DNA from: Dehalococcoidia bacterium | GTDB lineage: Bacteria > Chloroflexota > Dehalococcoidia > SpSt-223 | Assembly: GCA_025054935.1 (NCBI GenBank) | Contig: JANWZD010000018.1 | Span: forward strand, 1 to 52,882 | Length of the DNA: 52,882 nucleotides | Reading direction: 5' to 3' | In this document: piece after piece, positions 14,558 through 20,904 of the stretch | How the letters are laid out: the number at the start of each line of letters is the position of its first letter | Position numbering within the stretch: position 1 is the stretch's first letter | Position numbers and translations under genes: made by a program | Notes under the pieces: generated by a model | Database searches by the model: none | What the model was told of the DNA's origin: nothing | The model's input: the letters and a program-made list of their open reading frames with translations, nothing else

Positions 14558-15175
14558 CTACTTCGGAACGCGGTAGGTGCAGCTTTCGTCGCCTTCGACG
14601 ATCGAGCCTTCCCGGACGACAGGCTTGTTGACGACGGCGGTAAAGAGGTCGGCTTCGCACTGGCAGGCGACGGGGAAGCGCGAGGCGACCTCGTAGATCG
14701 GGCAGTTATGTTCGCGGATCACGTAGCTGTCCGGCTGCTCCTCCACGCTCGCCATGTAGCCGTCTTCATTGCGGAGACGGACCAACTCCTGAACGCGCTG
14801 AGCGGGGTCGTCGAGCGGCGCGACACGCTCCTGCAGGACGCGGGCGTTGCGGGCGCGCAGGAGCTGTTCCAGCTTCTCTTCGCCATCGAGCGCGACGAGG
14901 TCGGCAATGAGGTCGAGCGAGAGCTGGCGATAGCCTTGCGGAAATAGGGCATCAGCGGCGGGGGTGAGCTGGTAGAGGAGCGCCGGCCGTCCCCGCGGCT
15001 GCTTCACGGTCGAGACGCGGACGAGCCCCTCCGCTTCCAGCGCTTCAAGATGCTTCCGGACAGCCACCGGCGTGATGCCGAGTGCGTCGGCAAGCGCTTG
15101 GGCTGTCTGCCGGCCTCGCAGCTTCAAGGTGCGCAGGATCGCCTCTCGGCCTCGCGGACGATCAGTCGGGTGCAT
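14558..15175 (-). CDS. sufR: SufR-type Fe-S sensing transcriptional repressor
   Basis: A 205-residue DeoR/ArsR-like regulator. It has an N-terminal winged helix (TAQALADALGITPVAVRKHLEALEAEGLVR, wing QPRGRPALLYQLT) and a C-terminal domain with four cysteines, C-x12-C-x-C then C after 25 residues (EHNCPIYE, ACQCEAD, ESCTYRV), the arrangement that binds a 4Fe-4S cluster in SufR. SufR with cluster represses the suf genes and is released when clusters are lacking. It is divergent from sufC across 150 bases that contain both promoters and a 30-base palindrome. The start is ATG 15175, with GAGGG ahead. Confidence 0.92.
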   Translation of the reverse strand: MHPTDRPRGREAILRTLKLRGRQTAQALADALGITPVAVRKHLEALEAEGLVRVSTVKQPRGRPALLYQLTPAADALFPQGYRQLSLDLIADLVALDGEEKLEQLLRARNARVLQERVAPLDDPAQRVQELVRLRNEDGYMASVEEQPDSYVIREHNCPIYEVASRFPVACQCEADLFTAVVNKPVVREGSIVEGDESCTYRVPK

Positions 15176-15192
15176 CGGTCGCCCTCGCTCCG

Positions 15193-15221
15193 AGTATATC
15201 GAGGCGTCGTTCCTCCGTCAA
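15193..15221 (-). promoter_or_regulatory. sufR promoter
   Basis: On the minus strand TTGACG (15221-15216) is separated by exactly 17 bases from TATACT (15198-15193). Transcription should start near 15186, leaving a leader of about 11 bases that includes the GAGGG ribosome binding site. The palindrome at 15230-15259 lies just upstream of the -35 element. Confidence 0.75.
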
Positions 15222-15229
15222 CATTCTCT

Positions 15230-15259
15230 AACTCTCTGGTTTTTCAAAACCACTGAGTT
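15230..15259. promoter_or_regulatory. 30-base palindrome, candidate SufR operator
   Basis: Inner arms TGGTTTT (15237-15243) and AAAACCA (15246-15252) are perfect inverted repeats around a 2-base centre. Outer arms AACTC (15230-15234) and GAGTT (15255-15259) extend the symmetry, with two unpaired bases between inner and outer arm on each side. The right outer arm overlaps the first two bases of the suf -35. It is the only strong dyad in the sufR-sufC gap, so it is the best operator candidate. Its sequence differs from the CAAC-N6-GTTG site I recall for cyanobacterial SufR. Confidence 0.65.
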
Positions 15260-15286
15260 GCGAAAAGCGCGCAGATGTGCTAGGGT
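15258..15286 (+). promoter_or_regulatory. suf operon promoter
   Basis: TTGCGA (15258-15263) and TAGGGT (15281-15286) are 17 bases apart, and TGC directly precedes the -10, giving an extended -10. Transcription should start near 15293, about 33 bases before the sufC ATG. GAGGGAG upstream of the ATG is the likely ribosome binding site. The candidate operator covers the -35 and the bases upstream of it. Confidence 0.65.
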
Positions 15287-15325
15287 ACAGGGCGAAAAGG
15301 AACGAGAAAACGCGAGGGAGCGCGC

Positions 15326-16102
15326 ATGACCGAGGAGAGCGGTCTTGTCATCAACGACCTCCACGTGGCCGTTGATGGCAAGGAGATTGTCAAGGGGCTG
15401 TCGCTCACGATCCGGAAGGGCGAAATCCACGCGCTGATGGGCCCGAACGGCTCGGGGAAGAGCACGCTGGCGAACACCCTGATGGGCCATCCCGGCTACG
15501 AGGTGACGCAGGGCGAGATTGTGCTCGACGGAGCGAACATTGTCGATGAGCCGCCGGACGAGCGGGCGCGGCGCGGGCTGTTTCTCGCTTTCCAGTATCC
15601 GACGTCGGTTCCGGGCGTCAGCATGGGCAACTTCCTCCGCTTAGCGATGAAGGCGGTCCAAGGGCGCGATATCCCCCCGATGGAGTTTCGCCGCACCGTC
15701 CAAGAGAAGATGAAGCTGCTCAAGATGGATAGCTCGTTCCTTTCGCGCTACCTGAATGAGGGGTTCTCCGGGGGCGAGAAGAAACGAGCGGAGATCTTGC
15801 AGATGGCGCTCTTGCGGCCGAAATACGCAATCCTCGACGAGACCGACTCCGGACTCGACATCGACGCGCTCCGCATCGTCTCGGAAGGGGTGAACGCCCT
15901 CGCCGGCCCGGACCTAGGCATCTTGGTGATTACGCACTATCAGCGCTTGCTGCAGTACATCCAGCCGCACTTTGTCCATGTGCTGGTTGATGGGCGCATC
16001 GTCCGGTCGGGCGGACAGGAGCTTGCCCATGAACTCGAAGCGCGGGGCTACGACTGGGTGATCCAAGAGGCAGCGGCAATGAGCGGGGAGGCACGACCAT
16101 GA
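15326..16102 (+). CDS. sufC: Fe-S cluster assembly ATPase SufC
   Basis: A 258-residue ABC-type ATPase. Walker A is GPNGSGKST, the signature is [11 protein letters not shown], Walker B is [16 protein letters not shown], and the switch His is in [12 protein letters not shown]. SufC lacks a membrane partner and powers the cytosolic SufBCD scaffold that builds Fe-S clusters. It is first in the operon, and its stop codon overlaps the sufB ATG (ATGA, 16099-16102). Confidence 0.97.
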
Positions 16103-17523
16103 CGCAGGATCTGCAGGCGCGCGAAGCAGCGATCCTTGAGGAGATCAAGCGCGAATACAAGTACGGCTTTCATGACGAGGCCGAGTATGTGTTCAAATCG
16201 GAGCGCGGCCTGAACGAGCGGGTCGTCGCGCAGATTTCGGAGATGAAAAACGAGCCGGCGTGGATGCGCCGCTTCCGGCTCCGCGCGCTCGAGATCTTCC
16301 GCCAGAAGCCGATGCCGACCTGGGGCGGCGATCTCTCTGAGATCGACTTTGACTCCATCCACTACTATGTCCGGCCGAGCGAGCGCGCCGCGCGCTCGTG
16401 GGATGAAGTGCCGGAATACATCAAGAACACCTTTGATCGCCTCGGCATCCCGGAGGCGGAGCGGAAGTTCCTTGCCGGCGTCGGCGCGCAGTATGAGTCG
16501 GAGGTCGTCTATCACAACCTCCGCGAAGACCTTGAGAAGCAGGGCGTTATCTTCCTCGATACGGACAGCGCGCTGCGCGAGCACGAAGCTCTGTTCCGGG
16601 AATACTTCGGGACGGTGGTGCCGCCAGCGGACAACAAGTTTGCGGCGCTCAACTCGGCGGTCTGGAGCGGCGGCTCGTTTATCTATGTGCCGAAGGGCGT
16701 GAAGGTCGAGATCCCGCTGCAGGCCTATTTCCGGATCAACACTGAGAACATGGGCCAGTTCGAGCGCACGCTCATCATCGCTGACGAAGACAGCTACGTC
16801 CACTATGTCGAGGGCTGCACCGCTCCGGTCTATTCGACCGACTCGCTCCACAGCGCCGTCGTCGAGATCATTGTCAAGCGGGGCGCTCGGGTGCGCTATA
16901 CGACCATCCAGAACTGGTCGGTCAATGTCTACAACCTCGTCACCAAGCGCGCCGCCGTCTATGCCGATGGCGTGATGGAATGGGTCGACTGCAATCTCGG
17001 CTCGAAGCTGACGATGAAGTATCCGGCGGTCTATCTGATGGAGCCGGGCGCCCGCGGCGACATTCTCTCCGTGGCCTACGCCGGGCGCGGCCAGCATCAG
17101 GATGCGGGCGGGAAGATTATTCACGTCGCGCCGCGCACCAGCTCGACCGTCATCTCCAAGTCGATCTCCAAAGATGGCGGGCGGACAAGCTATCGCGGCT
17201 TGCTCAAGGTCTATCCTGGCGCCGTCGATGTGAAGTCCAACGTCCGCTGCGACGCGCTGCTGCTCGATGACCAGTCGCGCTCCGACACCTACCCGTATAT
17301 CGAGGTGGAAGAGAACCGCGTGACGCTCGGTCATGAGGCGACGGTCAGCAAGGTCGGCGAGGAGCAGCTGTTCTACCTGATGAGCCGCGGCCTCTCGGAG
17401 CAGGAGGCGACGACCCTAATCGTCAACGGCTTTATCGAGCCGATTACCAAGGAACTGCCGCTCGAATACGCCGTTGAGATGAACCGGCTGATCCAGCTTG
17501 AAATGGAAGGGTCGGTCGGGTAA
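16099..17523 (+). CDS. sufB: Fe-S cluster assembly scaffold SufB
   Basis: A 474-residue SufB with the family segments [38 protein letters not shown] and [10 protein letters not shown], and the C-terminal beta-helix parts [13 protein letters not shown] and [10 protein letters not shown]. SufB is the main scaffold of the SufBC2D complex, on which clusters are assembled from sulfur delivered by SufS-SufU. It overlaps sufC by four bases. Downstream, 76 bases including a strong hairpin and a parS site separate it from sufD, the only sizeable gap inside the early operon. Confidence 0.97.
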
Positions 17524-17528
17524 GAACT

Positions 17529-17558
17529 CGCTCGCCAGCTGCCCCGCCCTGGCGAGCG
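17529..17558 (+). other. 10-bp perfect stem-loop between sufB and sufD
   Basis: Arms CGCTCGCCAG (17529-17538) and CTGGCGAGCG (17549-17558) are exact inverted repeats around a 10-base loop. The stem starts six bases after the sufB stop codon. There is no U-tract of intrinsic-terminator type immediately after it. It could protect the sufCB part of the message from 3-prime decay or reduce read-through into sufD; this is inference. Confidence 0.6.
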
Positions 17559-17565
17559 CAGCGCC

Positions 17566-17581
17566 TGTTTCACGTGAAACT
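17566..17581. promoter_or_regulatory. parS, ParB-binding centromere site
   Basis: TGTTTCACGTGAAACT matches the conserved bacterial parS sequence TGTTTCACGTGAAACA at 15 of 16 positions; the 14-base core GTTTCACGTGAAAC is a perfect palindrome. It lies between sufB and sufD, about 13 to 15 kb from the parB-parA genes in this window. ParB would load here and spread over the suf and rpmH regions. I see no other copy in the window. Confidence 0.92.
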
Positions 17582-17599
17582 TCTGAGAGGAGAATGGGC

Positions 17600-18934
17600 A
17601 TGAGTGGCGCCCGTGGGCCGGCGCCGGGCCTCCCTTTGACAGGAACGGGGCGGCTGGCCGGCGGCTTCAGCCGGGCCGGTGTCGACGAGCTTTCGCAGCG
17701 CAAAGGCGAGCCGGAATGGCTGCGCCAGCGGCGGCTGGCGGCGTGGGAGGTCTTTTCGGCAACCCCGTGGCCAACCGGGAAGGAAGAGGCTTGGCGCCGG
17801 ATCGATATACACAGCGTCACCCTCGACGGCATCGTGCCGGTCGTTGGGCCGGACGACGGCGCTGTCCCGCCGCCGCTTGAGGAGGGCGATGCGTCAGAAG
17901 CGGGAATGATCGCGCTCCACAACGGCGCAGCGGTCGCGTCGCGCGCGGCGCTGCCGCCCGGCGTGATCTTCACGTCGCTCGACGCGGCGGTGCGCGACTA
18001 CCCCGACCTCGTCGAGCCGTTCCTCGGTACGATCGTTCGGCCTGAAGATGGGATCTTCGCCGCCCTCAACACGGCGTTCTGGTCTGGCGGGGTCTTTCTC
18101 TATGTTCCCGCCGGTGTTGAGGTGGCGCTGCCGCTGCGCGCGCTCCATTGGGCGGACGGCGCCGGCGTTGGGGTCGGCGGCCGGTCGCTCGTTGTGGTCG
18201 ACGCGGGCGGTGCGGCGACGTTCATCGACGACTGCCTGTCCGCCCCCGGGGCCGCAGGGCTCGTTACTGACGTGGTCGAACTGCGCGTGGGCGCGGGCGC
18301 CCGCCTGCGCTACATTGCGCTCCACGACCGCGGCCGCGGCGTCGCGAGCTTCTCCTGGCTCCGCGGGATCACCGCCCGGGACGCGACCCTACACTGGTTG
18401 CTCGTCGTTCTCGGCAGCCGCCTCGCGCGCGTCGACCTCGCCGCGGTGATGGACGAACCGGGCAGTACTCACGAACTGCTCGGTCTCTGCTTCGGCGATG
18501 ACGCGCAGCAATTCGACCTGCACACCCTGCAGCTTCACGCTGCGCCGCACGCCACGAGCGACTTGCTCTTCAAGAGCGTTCTCAAAGAGAGCGCGCGCTC
18601 GGCGTTCGCCGGGCTGATCCAGGTCGCCAAAGGCGCCCAGCGGACCGACGCCTATCTTGCCAACCGAAATCTGCTCCTTTCTGACAAGGCGCGGGCGGAT
18701 TCGATCCCGACGCTGGAGATCGAGGCGAATGATGTCCGCTGCACCCATGGAGCGACGGTGGGGCCGATCGACGAAGAGCAGGTCTTCTACCTGATGACAC
18801 GCGGCATCCCGCGGATCGAGGCCGAGCGGATGATTGTGGAAGGGTTTCTGGAGCCTCTTCTCTCCCGGGTGCCAATCGAGCGCGTTCGCGCGCGCCTCGA
18901 TCAGTCCATTGCGCGGAAGATGGAGGGACGATGA
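17600..18934 (+). CDS. sufD: Fe-S cluster assembly protein SufD
   Basis: A 444-residue SufB/D-family protein, placed as SufD by position and by an N-terminal segment EWLRQRRLAAWEVFSATPWPTG typical of SufD. The core includes FAALNTAFWSGGVFLYVPAGVE, and the C terminus DEEQVFYLMTRGIPRIEAE. It forms the SufBC2D scaffold with SufB and SufC. ATG 17600 is the start because GAGAGGAG (17585-17592) is seven bases upstream; the ATG at 17594 would be too close. The stop overlaps the Rieske gene (ATGA). Confidence 0.95.
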   Translation: MSGARGPAPGLPLTGTGRLAGGFSRAGVDELSQRKGEPEWLRQRRLAAWEVFSATPWPTGKEEAWRRIDIHSVTLDGIVPVVGPDDGAVPPPLEEGDASEAGMIALHNGAAVASRAALPPGVIFTSLDAAVRDYPDLVEPFLGTIVRPEDGIFAALNTAFWSGGVFLYVPAGVEVALPLRALHWADGAGVGVGGRSLVVVDAGGAATFIDDCLSAPGAAGLVTDVVELRVGAGARLRYIALHDRGRGVASFSWLRGITARDATLHWLLVVLGSRLARVDLAAVMDEPGSTHELLGLCFGDDAQQFDLHTLQLHAAPHATSDLLFKSVLKESARSAFAGLIQVAKGAQRTDAYLANRNLLLSDKARADSIPTLEIEANDVRCTHGATVGPIDEEQVFYLMTRGIPRIEAERMIVEGFLEPLLSRVPIERVRARLDQSIARKMEGR

Positions 18935-19239
18935 GCGAGTTCCGTCCGGTCGCCAAACTGAGCCAGCTCCCGGATAATTCCGTCATCCGGGTCGAGCTTG
19001 ATGGGGAGGCGATCGCTGTGGCGCGCTCGAACGGCGAGGTGTTTGCCTGCCAAGATGCATGCACGCACGAAGAAGCGTCGCTCTCCGACGGCGATGTCTT
19101 CGACGGGGTGATCGAGTGTCCGCTCCACGGCGCGCGCTTTGACCTGCGCACCGGCGCAGTCAAGTCGCTGCCAGCAGTCACCCCGATCGCGGTCTTCGAG
19201 GTCAAAATCGAGGGAGATGATATCCTTGTGAAGCGGTAG
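18931..19239 (+). CDS. Rieske-type [2Fe-2S] ferredoxin in the suf operon
   Basis: A 102-residue Rieske ferredoxin of the non-heme dioxygenase/NirD type. Its cluster ligands are visible as C-T-H in DACTHEEAS and C-P-L-H in IECPLHGARFD. The spacing is as in soluble Rieske ferredoxins. Such genes recur in suf operons of Actinobacteria, Chloroflexota and others, where they may carry electrons for cluster assembly or repair; the precise role is not settled. It is coupled to sufD by a four-base overlap. Confidence 0.93.
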   Translation: MSEFRPVAKLSQLPDNSVIRVELDGEAIAVARSNGEVFACQDACTHEEASLSDGDVFDGVIECPLHGARFDLRTGAVKSLPAVTPIAVFEVKIEGDDILVKR

Positions 19240-19256: not shown

Positions 19257-20483
19257 ATGCTCAACGAACAGCAGATCCGCGCCGACTTTCCTATCCTGGC
19301 GCGAACGGTGCACGGCAAGCCGCTTGTCTATCTCGACAGCGCGGCGACGGCGCAGAAGCCGCGCCAAGTCATTGACGCGCTCGTCGAGTATTACTCGCGG
19401 CACAACGCCAACGTCCATCGCGGTCTCCATGCGCTCGGCGATGAAGCGACGGAGCTGTTCGAGCAGGCACGCGCCACCGTCGCCCGCTTCCTCAACGCGC
19501 GCGACCCACGGGAGATTATCTTCGTTCGGAATACAACCGAAGCGATCAATCTGGTCGCCCGCGCCTACGGCGGACGCGTGCTCGGGCCAGGCGACGAAGT
19601 CTGGACGAGCGCCATCGAGCACCATAGCAATTTGGTCCCGTGGCAGCGCATTGCCGCCGAGCGCGGCGCGACGACACGCTATTTCCCAATGGACGAGGAG
19701 CAGTCGCTGCCGCTCGCGTCGCTCGACCTCCTCACCCGGCGCGCCAAGATCGTTGCTCTCGTCCATGTTTCAAACGCGTTCGGCACGATCCATCCGGTTG
19801 AGCAGGTGGTCGCTGCGGCACATGCCGCCGGTGCGGTCGTCCTAGTCGACGCCGCGCAGAGCGTCCCGCATATGCCAGTTGATGTCCAGGCCCTTGGCTG
19901 CGACTTTCTCGCGTTCTCCGGGCATAAGATGTGCGGCCCGATGGGGATCGGCGTGCTCTGGGGACGGCTCGAGCTGCTCGAAGCGATGGACCCCTTTCTC
20001 AGCGGCGGCAGCATGATCCAGGAAGTCTTCTATGACCACGCGCTGTGGGCCGAGCCGCCGCGCAAATTCGAAGCTGGCACGCCCAATGTCGCCGATGCCG
20101 TCGGGCTTGCTGCCGCGATCCGCTATCTCGACGGGATCGGGATGGCGAACATCCGCGCTCACGAGCGCGAGCTGGTCGCCTACGGGATGGCGGCGCTGCG
20201 TGCTCTGCCCGGCGTGCGCGTCTACGGTCCCGCCGACCCTGACCGGCATGGCGGCGTCCTCTCGTTCACGGTGGACGGGATCCATCCGCACGACCTCGGC
20301 ACGATCCTCGACCAAGAGGGGATCGCAATCCGGGCCGGCCAGCACTGCTGTCATCCAGCCATGCGCGCCCTCGGTATCAGCGGGACAGCGCGGGCGAGCG
20401 TCTACCTCTACACGCTGCGCGACGAACTCGACGCGCTGGTTGCCGGGATCGCGCGCGCGCGCGAGGTGTTTGCTCTTGCTTAA
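19257..20483 (+). CDS. sufS: Cysteine desulfurase SufS
   Basis: A 408-residue PLP-dependent group II cysteine desulfurase. The PLP lysine is in AFSGHKMCGPMG (about residue 223), the PLP-binding Asp/Gln in VLVDAAQSVPH, and the catalytic cysteine in RAGQHCCHPAM (about 363). It abstracts sulfur from cysteine for transfer to SufU and then SufB. GAGGGCG precedes the ATG at 19257. The end overlaps the TTG start of sufU by eight bases. Confidence 0.97.
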   Translation: MLNEQQIRADFPILARTVHGKPLVYLDSAATAQKPRQVIDALVEYYSRHNANVHRGLHALGDEATELFEQARATVARFLNARDPREIIFVRNTTEAINLVARAYGGRVLGPGDEVWTSAIEHHSNLVPWQRIAAERGATTRYFPMDEEQSLPLASLDLLTRRAKIVALVHVSNAFGTIHPVEQVVAAAHAAGAVVLVDAAQSVPHMPVDVQALGCDFLAFSGHKMCGPMGIGVLWGRLELLEAMDPFLSGGSMIQEVFYDHALWAEPPRKFEAGTPNVADAVGLAAAIRYLDGIGMANIRAHERELVAYGMAALRALPGVRVYGPADPDRHGGVLSFTVDGIHPHDLGTILDQEGIAIRAGQHCCHPAMRALGISGTARASVYLYTLRDELDALVAGIARAREVFALA

Positions 20484-20904
20484 TGAACTTTATCGGGAAA
20501 TCATCCTCGACCACTATCGCAGCCCGCGCAATCGCGGAGAGCTGCCCGACGCCGATACCAAGGTGCGCGGCAGCAACCCAATCTGCGGCGACGAAGTGAC
20601 GCTCTACCTGAAGATCGGCGACGGCGCAATCGCGGCTGCCCGCTCGACCGGCAATGGGTGCTCAATCAGCCAAGCGTCGACCTCGATCATGACCCAGGCG
20701 ATCGTTGGCCGTTCGCTTGAGGAGGCGCTCGCTCTTGTCGAGCAGGTCGAGGGGATGATGCGGGGAGGCGGCGTGCCCGAAGGCCCGAACCTCGAGGACC
20801 TCGCCGCCCTCGAGGGCGTCCGCAAGTTCCCGGCGCGGGTCAAGTGCGCGCTGCTGCCGTGGGAGACCCTCAAGCAGTCGATCCACGAATACCGCGCACG
20901 CTGA
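20476..20904 (+). CDS. sufU: Zinc-dependent sulfurtransferase SufU
   Basis: A 142-residue protein starting LNELYREIILDHYRSPRNRG, the standard SufU/IscU-like N terminus. The zinc ligands are Asp and Cys in NPICGDEV, Cys in GNGCSISQAS and Cys in ARVKCALLPW; the insertion GMMRGGGVP between the last two marks SufU rather than IscU. SufU accepts sulfur from SufS. The start is TTG 20476, which overlaps the sufS stop codon, so translation is coupled. It is the last gene of the suf operon. Confidence 0.93.
   Translation: MLNELYREIILDHYRSPRNRGELPDADTKVRGSNPICGDEVTLYLKIGDGAIAAARSTGNGCSISQASTSIMTQAIVGRSLEEALALVEQVEGMMRGGGVPEGPNLEDLAALEGVRKFPARVKCALLPWETLKQSIHEYRAR

Follow-up and report, generated by a model that had tools for sequence, protein, structure and literature searches.

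A predicted SufR control region of a known operator class, doubled in one genus of Chloroflexota

In the accessible text of the reports cited here, the cyanobacterial SufR operator is given as CAAC-N6-GTTG (PMC13421787, PMC8593673), and the same motif is given for Synechocystis (PMC4755962), where the SufR site preceding sufBCDS is of high affinity and that preceding sufR of low affinity (PMC6034842). The SufR site of Streptomyces avermitilis is likewise described there as CAAC-N6-GTTG, with GAAC-N6-GTTG in Corynebacterium glutamicum (PMC11995493). Among the literature matches listed, a set in which subscription papers lie mostly outside coverage, we recognised no description of SufR sites in Chloroflexota or of tandem SufR operators.

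The window, i.e., the whole stretch of DNA analysed here, comprises 52,882 nucleotides from a Dehalococcoidia bacterium and carries a sufR gene that is divergent from a sufC-sufB-sufD-ferredoxin-sufS-sufU cluster, with 150 bases between the two start codons (Table 1). It shares with Synechocystis PCC 6803, as far as the available text on that system goes, the divergent sufR/suf arrangement, the operator motif, an Fe-S repressor with conserved cysteines and the presence of two sites in the gap. Unlike Synechocystis, the sites of the window abut as a tandem of 18-bp pitch within a single 30-bp dyad, the operon starts with sufC, and sufU and a Rieske-type ferredoxin gene are found in the cluster. 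The sufRBDCSU system of S. avermitilis has the CAAC-N6-GTTG motif in common with the window, and Streptomyces-type SufR and window SufR fall in one supported group; however, according to the accessible part of its description, sufR is there the first gene of the operon and a single site lies over the -10 (PMC11995493). Judged from its sequence, the window holds a SufR control region of a known operator class that is doubled in one Chloroflexota genus, and the new part is modest, namely predicted SufR control in Chloroflexota and a genus-specific doubling of the putative operator with constant promoter geometry.

Table 1. Coordinates of the suf genes, predicted promoters and predicted operators in the window
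Feature	Position	Strand	Description
sufR	14558..15175	-	205-aa winged-helix Fe-S repressor of SufR type; cluster presumably bound by C158-X12-C171-X27-C199
sufR promoter	15193..15221	-	TTGACG-17-TATACT; -35 15221-15216, -10 15198-15193; recovered by consensus scan
sufR-side predicted SufR operator	15229..15242	.	TAAC-TCTCTG-GTTT; AAC-N6-GTT core 15230-15241; 6/8 of CAAC..GTTG; 8 bp upstream of sufR -35
Composite dyad	15230..15259	.	AACTCTCTGGTTTTTCAAAACCACTGAGTT; 12/15 pairs; tandem AAC-N6-GTT-N6-AAC-N6-GTT, centres 18 bp apart
sufC-side predicted SufR operator	15247..15260	.	AAAC-CACTGA-GTTG; core 15248-15259; 7/8 of CAAC..GTTG; GTTG overlaps sufC -35
sufC promoter	15258..15286	+	TTGCGA-17-TAGGGT; -35 15258-15263, -10 15281-15286; TGC precedes -10
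sufC	15326..16102	+	TIGR01978, above cut-off
sufB	16099..17523	+	TIGR01980, above cut-off
sufD	17498..18934	+	TIGR01981, above cut-off; 5' end approximate
Rieske-type 2Fe-2S ferredoxin	18931..19239	+	
sufS	19257..20483	+	TIGR01979, above cut-off
sufU	20479..20904	+	Start approximate; TIGR01994 on residues 150-284 of ORF 20032-20904

The window SufR was matched over its full length by TIGR02702, a model named SufR_cyano, with an E value of 5.9e-35 and a score of 120.9 bits, the curated cut-off being 178.8. Its N terminus forms a winged helix-turn-helix, for which Pfam HTH_24, HTH_11 and HTH_20 were all above the gathering score, and a PDB sequence search with the protein returned distant winged-helix proteins only. 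The cysteines C158, C171 and C199 have the same X12 and X27 spacing as C203, C216 and C244 of Rv1460 in the available text of PMC6034842, and all three were invariant (5/5, and 39/39 rows of the SufR tree); we infer that the window SufR binds an Fe-S cluster. The tree was built from 39 proteins, 28 of them Chloroflexota proteins linked to sufC/sufB and 11 taken from the 78 others of a scan of named genomes. In this tree the nine closest SufR proteins form one clade (96/92), which falls together with two f116 proteins and the clade of actinobacterial SufR at 99/96 support.

A preliminary description of this DNA had read the gap as a region of SufR control in which the two promoters diverge, each with an exact 17-base spacer, and a dyad between them as the likely SufR target. 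The spacers were borne out by the sequence and the dyad was present, with 12 of its 15 positions paired over 15230-15259, and the overall reading remains the likely one on sequence grounds. This dyad is the best 30-bp dyad of the 150-base gap, and only 4 of 5000 mononucleotide shuffles reached 12/15. As had also been said, the dyad lies upstream of the sufR -35, and the two bases with which it ends (15258-15259) also open the sufC -35. It starts 8 bp from the sufR -35 and overlaps the suf promoter more closely than the sufR promoter.

When spelled by unit, the dyad reads AAC-TCTCTG-GTT-TTTCAA-AAC-CACTGA-GTT, and the gap thus contains two copies of an AAC-N6-GTT core with the exact N6 spacing. 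The inner arms TGGTTTT/AAAACCA of the preliminary description are present, but they are better read as the facing halves of two predicted operators; its outer arms AACTC/GAGTT correspond to the outer operator halves, with conservation limited to AAC and GTT. Since two adjacent inverted repeats always form a larger inverted repeat, the 30-base palindrome would be a by-product of this arrangement. The exact tandem AAC-N6-GTT-N6-AAC-N6-GTT occurs a single time in the whole genome of the window, at the sufR-sufC gap. The perfect eight bases CAAC...GTTG are absent from both window sites (7/8 on the sufC side and 6/8 on the sufR side, where the unit is without the flanking C and G of the full motif), and the two are, by their sequence, core-motif sites and not perfect ones; perfect bases are not required in C. 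glutamicum, because GAAC-N6-GTTG is accepted there as a site in the accessible part of PMC11995493.

Two other genomes of the genus keep the gene order, G002 with a SufR 88% identical and G001 with one 67% identical to that of the window, and both (2/2) keep the palindrome. Their gaps read CAAC-CTGAGG-GTT-TTTGAA-AAC-CTTCCA-GTTG and CAAC-CACCAG-GTT-TTTGAA-AAC-CAATCG-GTTG. All four half-sites (AAC and GTT, twice each) are invariant in 3/3 genomes of the genus and the N6 stretches within the units have diverged, with the tandem pattern found once per genome in all three, each time at the sufR-sufC gap. The loci L004 and L005 match CAAC..GTTG at 7/8 positions at both operators.

The next-closest SufR proteins, 48-51% identical, come from six Chloroflexota of other families, one of the same class (G005) and five elsewhere in the phylum (G507, G577, G605, G528 and G486). 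Their loci (L006 and L152-L156) resemble the window in having divergent sufR and sufC and an AAC-N6-GTT that overlaps the sufC -35, and differ from it in having one such putative operator and not two; in L006 the SufC match (658-1336) is split in two pieces, perhaps by a frameshift in the draft genome or a sequencing error. Given these single-site relatives, the conserved unit is AAC-N6-GTT and not the 30-base palindrome on which the preliminary description had centred. In the nine loci with the closest SufR proteins, all of them with divergent genes, every sufR-sufC gap (9/9) contains the unit, and spacings of N0-N5 and N7-N15 gave 0 or 1 of 9. Dinucleotide shuffles of the gaps yielded a single site in 2.6-7.2% (0.026-0.072 per gap, chances that are not simply multipliable because the nine gaps are related) and the tandem in no more than 0.005%. 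The GTTG of the sufC-side site in the window (15257-15260) overlaps the predicted -35 of the suf promoter (15258-15263), and the same overlap was seen in all nine gaps, the outer CAA/TTG of this site forming the start of the sufC -35 (e.g., CAAC-CATTTG-GTTT in L153).

The promoters were compared across the same gaps. The sufR -35 is TTGAC(A/G) in 9/9 divergent relatives, with a spacer of 17 in 8/9. The sufC promoter of the window is weak, with 7/12 consensus positions, and falls under the threshold of the consensus scan, which missed it; its call is supported by its position and by conservation in relatives, among which the position of the sufC -35 is kept in the nine gaps compared. This -35 reads TTGACA in 6/6 single-operator relatives and TTGCGA or TTGCTT where the operator is doubled (window, L004-L006 and L152-L156 compared), and is, as predicted from these hexamers, weaker in the tandem-operator genus. 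Between the sufR-side GTT and the sufR -35 lie 8 bp in five of the nine gaps, namely those of the three tandem loci, of L006 and of L152; the remaining four have 10-11 bp. With this fixed 8 bp and the -35 contacts, a single additional 18-bp operator unit between constant promoter contacts therefore sets the tandem genus apart from L006 and L152.

On this evidence the palindrome very probably consists of two neighbouring SufR operators, both of the known CAAC-N6-GTTG class and spaced 18 bp from centre to centre, between the divergent promoters. The preliminary description had suggested that the operator might be of a different class, which would amount to one SufR dimer or another protein reading the central dyad GGTTTTT-S-AAAACC (GTT-N6-AAC), with the outer AAC and GTT incidental. 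The central 14 bases are indeed the longest nearly unbroken conserved stretch in 3/3 genomes of the genus, and since the linker GTTTTTSAAAAC is likewise conserved there, the central dyad might matter in itself. However, the central dyad is absent from the six divergent relatives outside the genus, each of which has one AAC-N6-GTT, the outer AAC and GTT do not vary among the three genomes of the genus, and the sites published in the accessible text of PMC13421787, PMC8593673 and PMC11995493 are CAAC-N6-GTTG, all of which makes the central-dyad reading improbable. A new operator class was rejected, given that the conserved AAC-N6-GTT matches the published SufR operator and the dyad resolves into two sites of this published type, and the two-operator reading corrects that idea. 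Control of the region by a different Fe-S or iron regulator of the IscR or Fur type, with the nearness of sufR incidental, finds a precedent in suf operons elsewhere that are under IscR, Fur or OxyR (available text of PMC6034842), but it is a very remote prospect here, as the motif agrees with the published SufR site and accompanies the SufR clade in both Chloroflexota and Actinomycetota.

A variant of the two-operator explanation holds that only the sufC-side operator works and that the sufR-side one has been inherited as a duplicate with no separate function. The sufC-side site is equivalent to the single operator of the relatives and is, in the window, the better match to the full motif, which would favor such a division; against it, the AAC and GTT of the sufR side are kept in 3/3 genomes despite the changed N6, and L004 and L005 match equally well at both sites, and we consider it unlikely that one operator alone is at work.

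Under the preferred reading of two SufR operators, the following mechanism is proposed. With Fe-S clusters in ample supply, each AAC-N6-GTT unit would be occupied by a [4Fe-4S]-SufR dimer. The sufC-side dimer, centred at about -39 from the predicted sufC start near 15293, would cover the sufC -35 and block RNA polymerase, and the sufR-side dimer, centred at about -49 from the predicted sufR start near 15186, would strengthen the complex and lower sufR transcription, i.e., act in autoregulation. When clusters are lost or reduced, SufR would leave and both transcripts would rise. The earlier proposal that suf is repressed tightly and sufR only partly fits the two-operator model and the high- and low-affinity sites of Synechocystis, and the better motif match of the sufC-side site (7/8 vs. 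6/8) lends weak support to tighter repression of sufC.

From the sequences compared, the doubling seems to have arisen at the level of the genus, when one 18-bp unit was inserted into an ancestral layout with a single operator; the operator-promoter distances on either side would have stayed unchanged. More tentatively, two SufR dimers lying side by side at an 18-bp pitch may act jointly and give this genus a sharper or two-step response to cluster status, in which the SufR level that releases suf differs from the one that releases sufR, the doubling having come about by insertion of a unit at fixed distances together with a weaker sufC -35; we hold this to be possible, with the odds somewhat against it. 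Single and doubled operators at the same geometry offer a natural pair for the effect of operator number in Fe-S homeostasis.

In the scan of named genomes 80 SufR loci were kept, and one of these (L072) agrees with the G001 locus throughout the part of the gap that was compared and was counted once, leaving 79 others. These are mostly from Actinomycetota and include an Anaerolineae MAG (L103) and a record titled Spirochaetaceae (L080). AAC-N6-GTT was found within 250 bases upstream of sufR in 53 of the 79, a count in which many loci are from Streptomyces and thus not independent, most often as CAACAATGGCGTTG; other spacings were found in 0-7 of the 79. The tandem was present in the G001 record only among the 80 loci.

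Among more distant Chloroflexota SufR homologues linked to sufC/sufB (L016, L020, L022, L024, L029, L030, L031, L103, L179, L213, L217, L223, L227, L232, L239 and L243-L246; sufC is about 2 kb away in L243 and L246), only 3 of 19 had AAC-N6-GTT, namely L016 (GAAC-N6-GTTG), L239 (CAAC-N6-GTTG) and, doubtfully, L246. This denominator is partial, as it covers 40 of more than 100 further phylum-wide matches and is restricted to homologues for which the retrieved DNA also contained a match to sufC or sufB. With the motif in so few of the distant homologues, the link between protein and site therefore holds for the SufR clade of the window and not for all SufR proteins, and distant Chloroflexota clades may use other operators. 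Ten of the 19 (L020, L022, L024, L029, L030, L031, L103, L217, L223 and L243) are suf-linked and have the conserved cysteines, with no AAC-N6-GTT upstream of sufR; several of these upstream regions have A/T-rich stretches near the -35.

The tandem pattern was found in 35 of 393 genomes of the class, with a reversed control at a similar rate, and with a leading C in 28 of 400 genomes of the phylum, where reversed-control matches were of the same order; as a class- or phylum-wide signature it was rejected, given these control rates. Thirty loci were given for the phylum pattern; that of the window alone is at sufR, and the other 29 are without a SufR match. The pattern alone is not rare, and the evidence lies in its position and conservation. 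A whole-genome regulon search with AACC-N4-GGTT gave no signal, with 16 places vs. 26 for the reversed control. In L042-L047, which belong to one genus (g20), the tandem-pattern matches around position 1500 are a shared, different dyad, e.g., AACAGATATGTTGACATCAACAGTTGTGTT in L042; it precedes a small gene that is HicA-like by eye, and this dyad is probably a site of toxin-antitoxin autoregulation with no relation to SufR.
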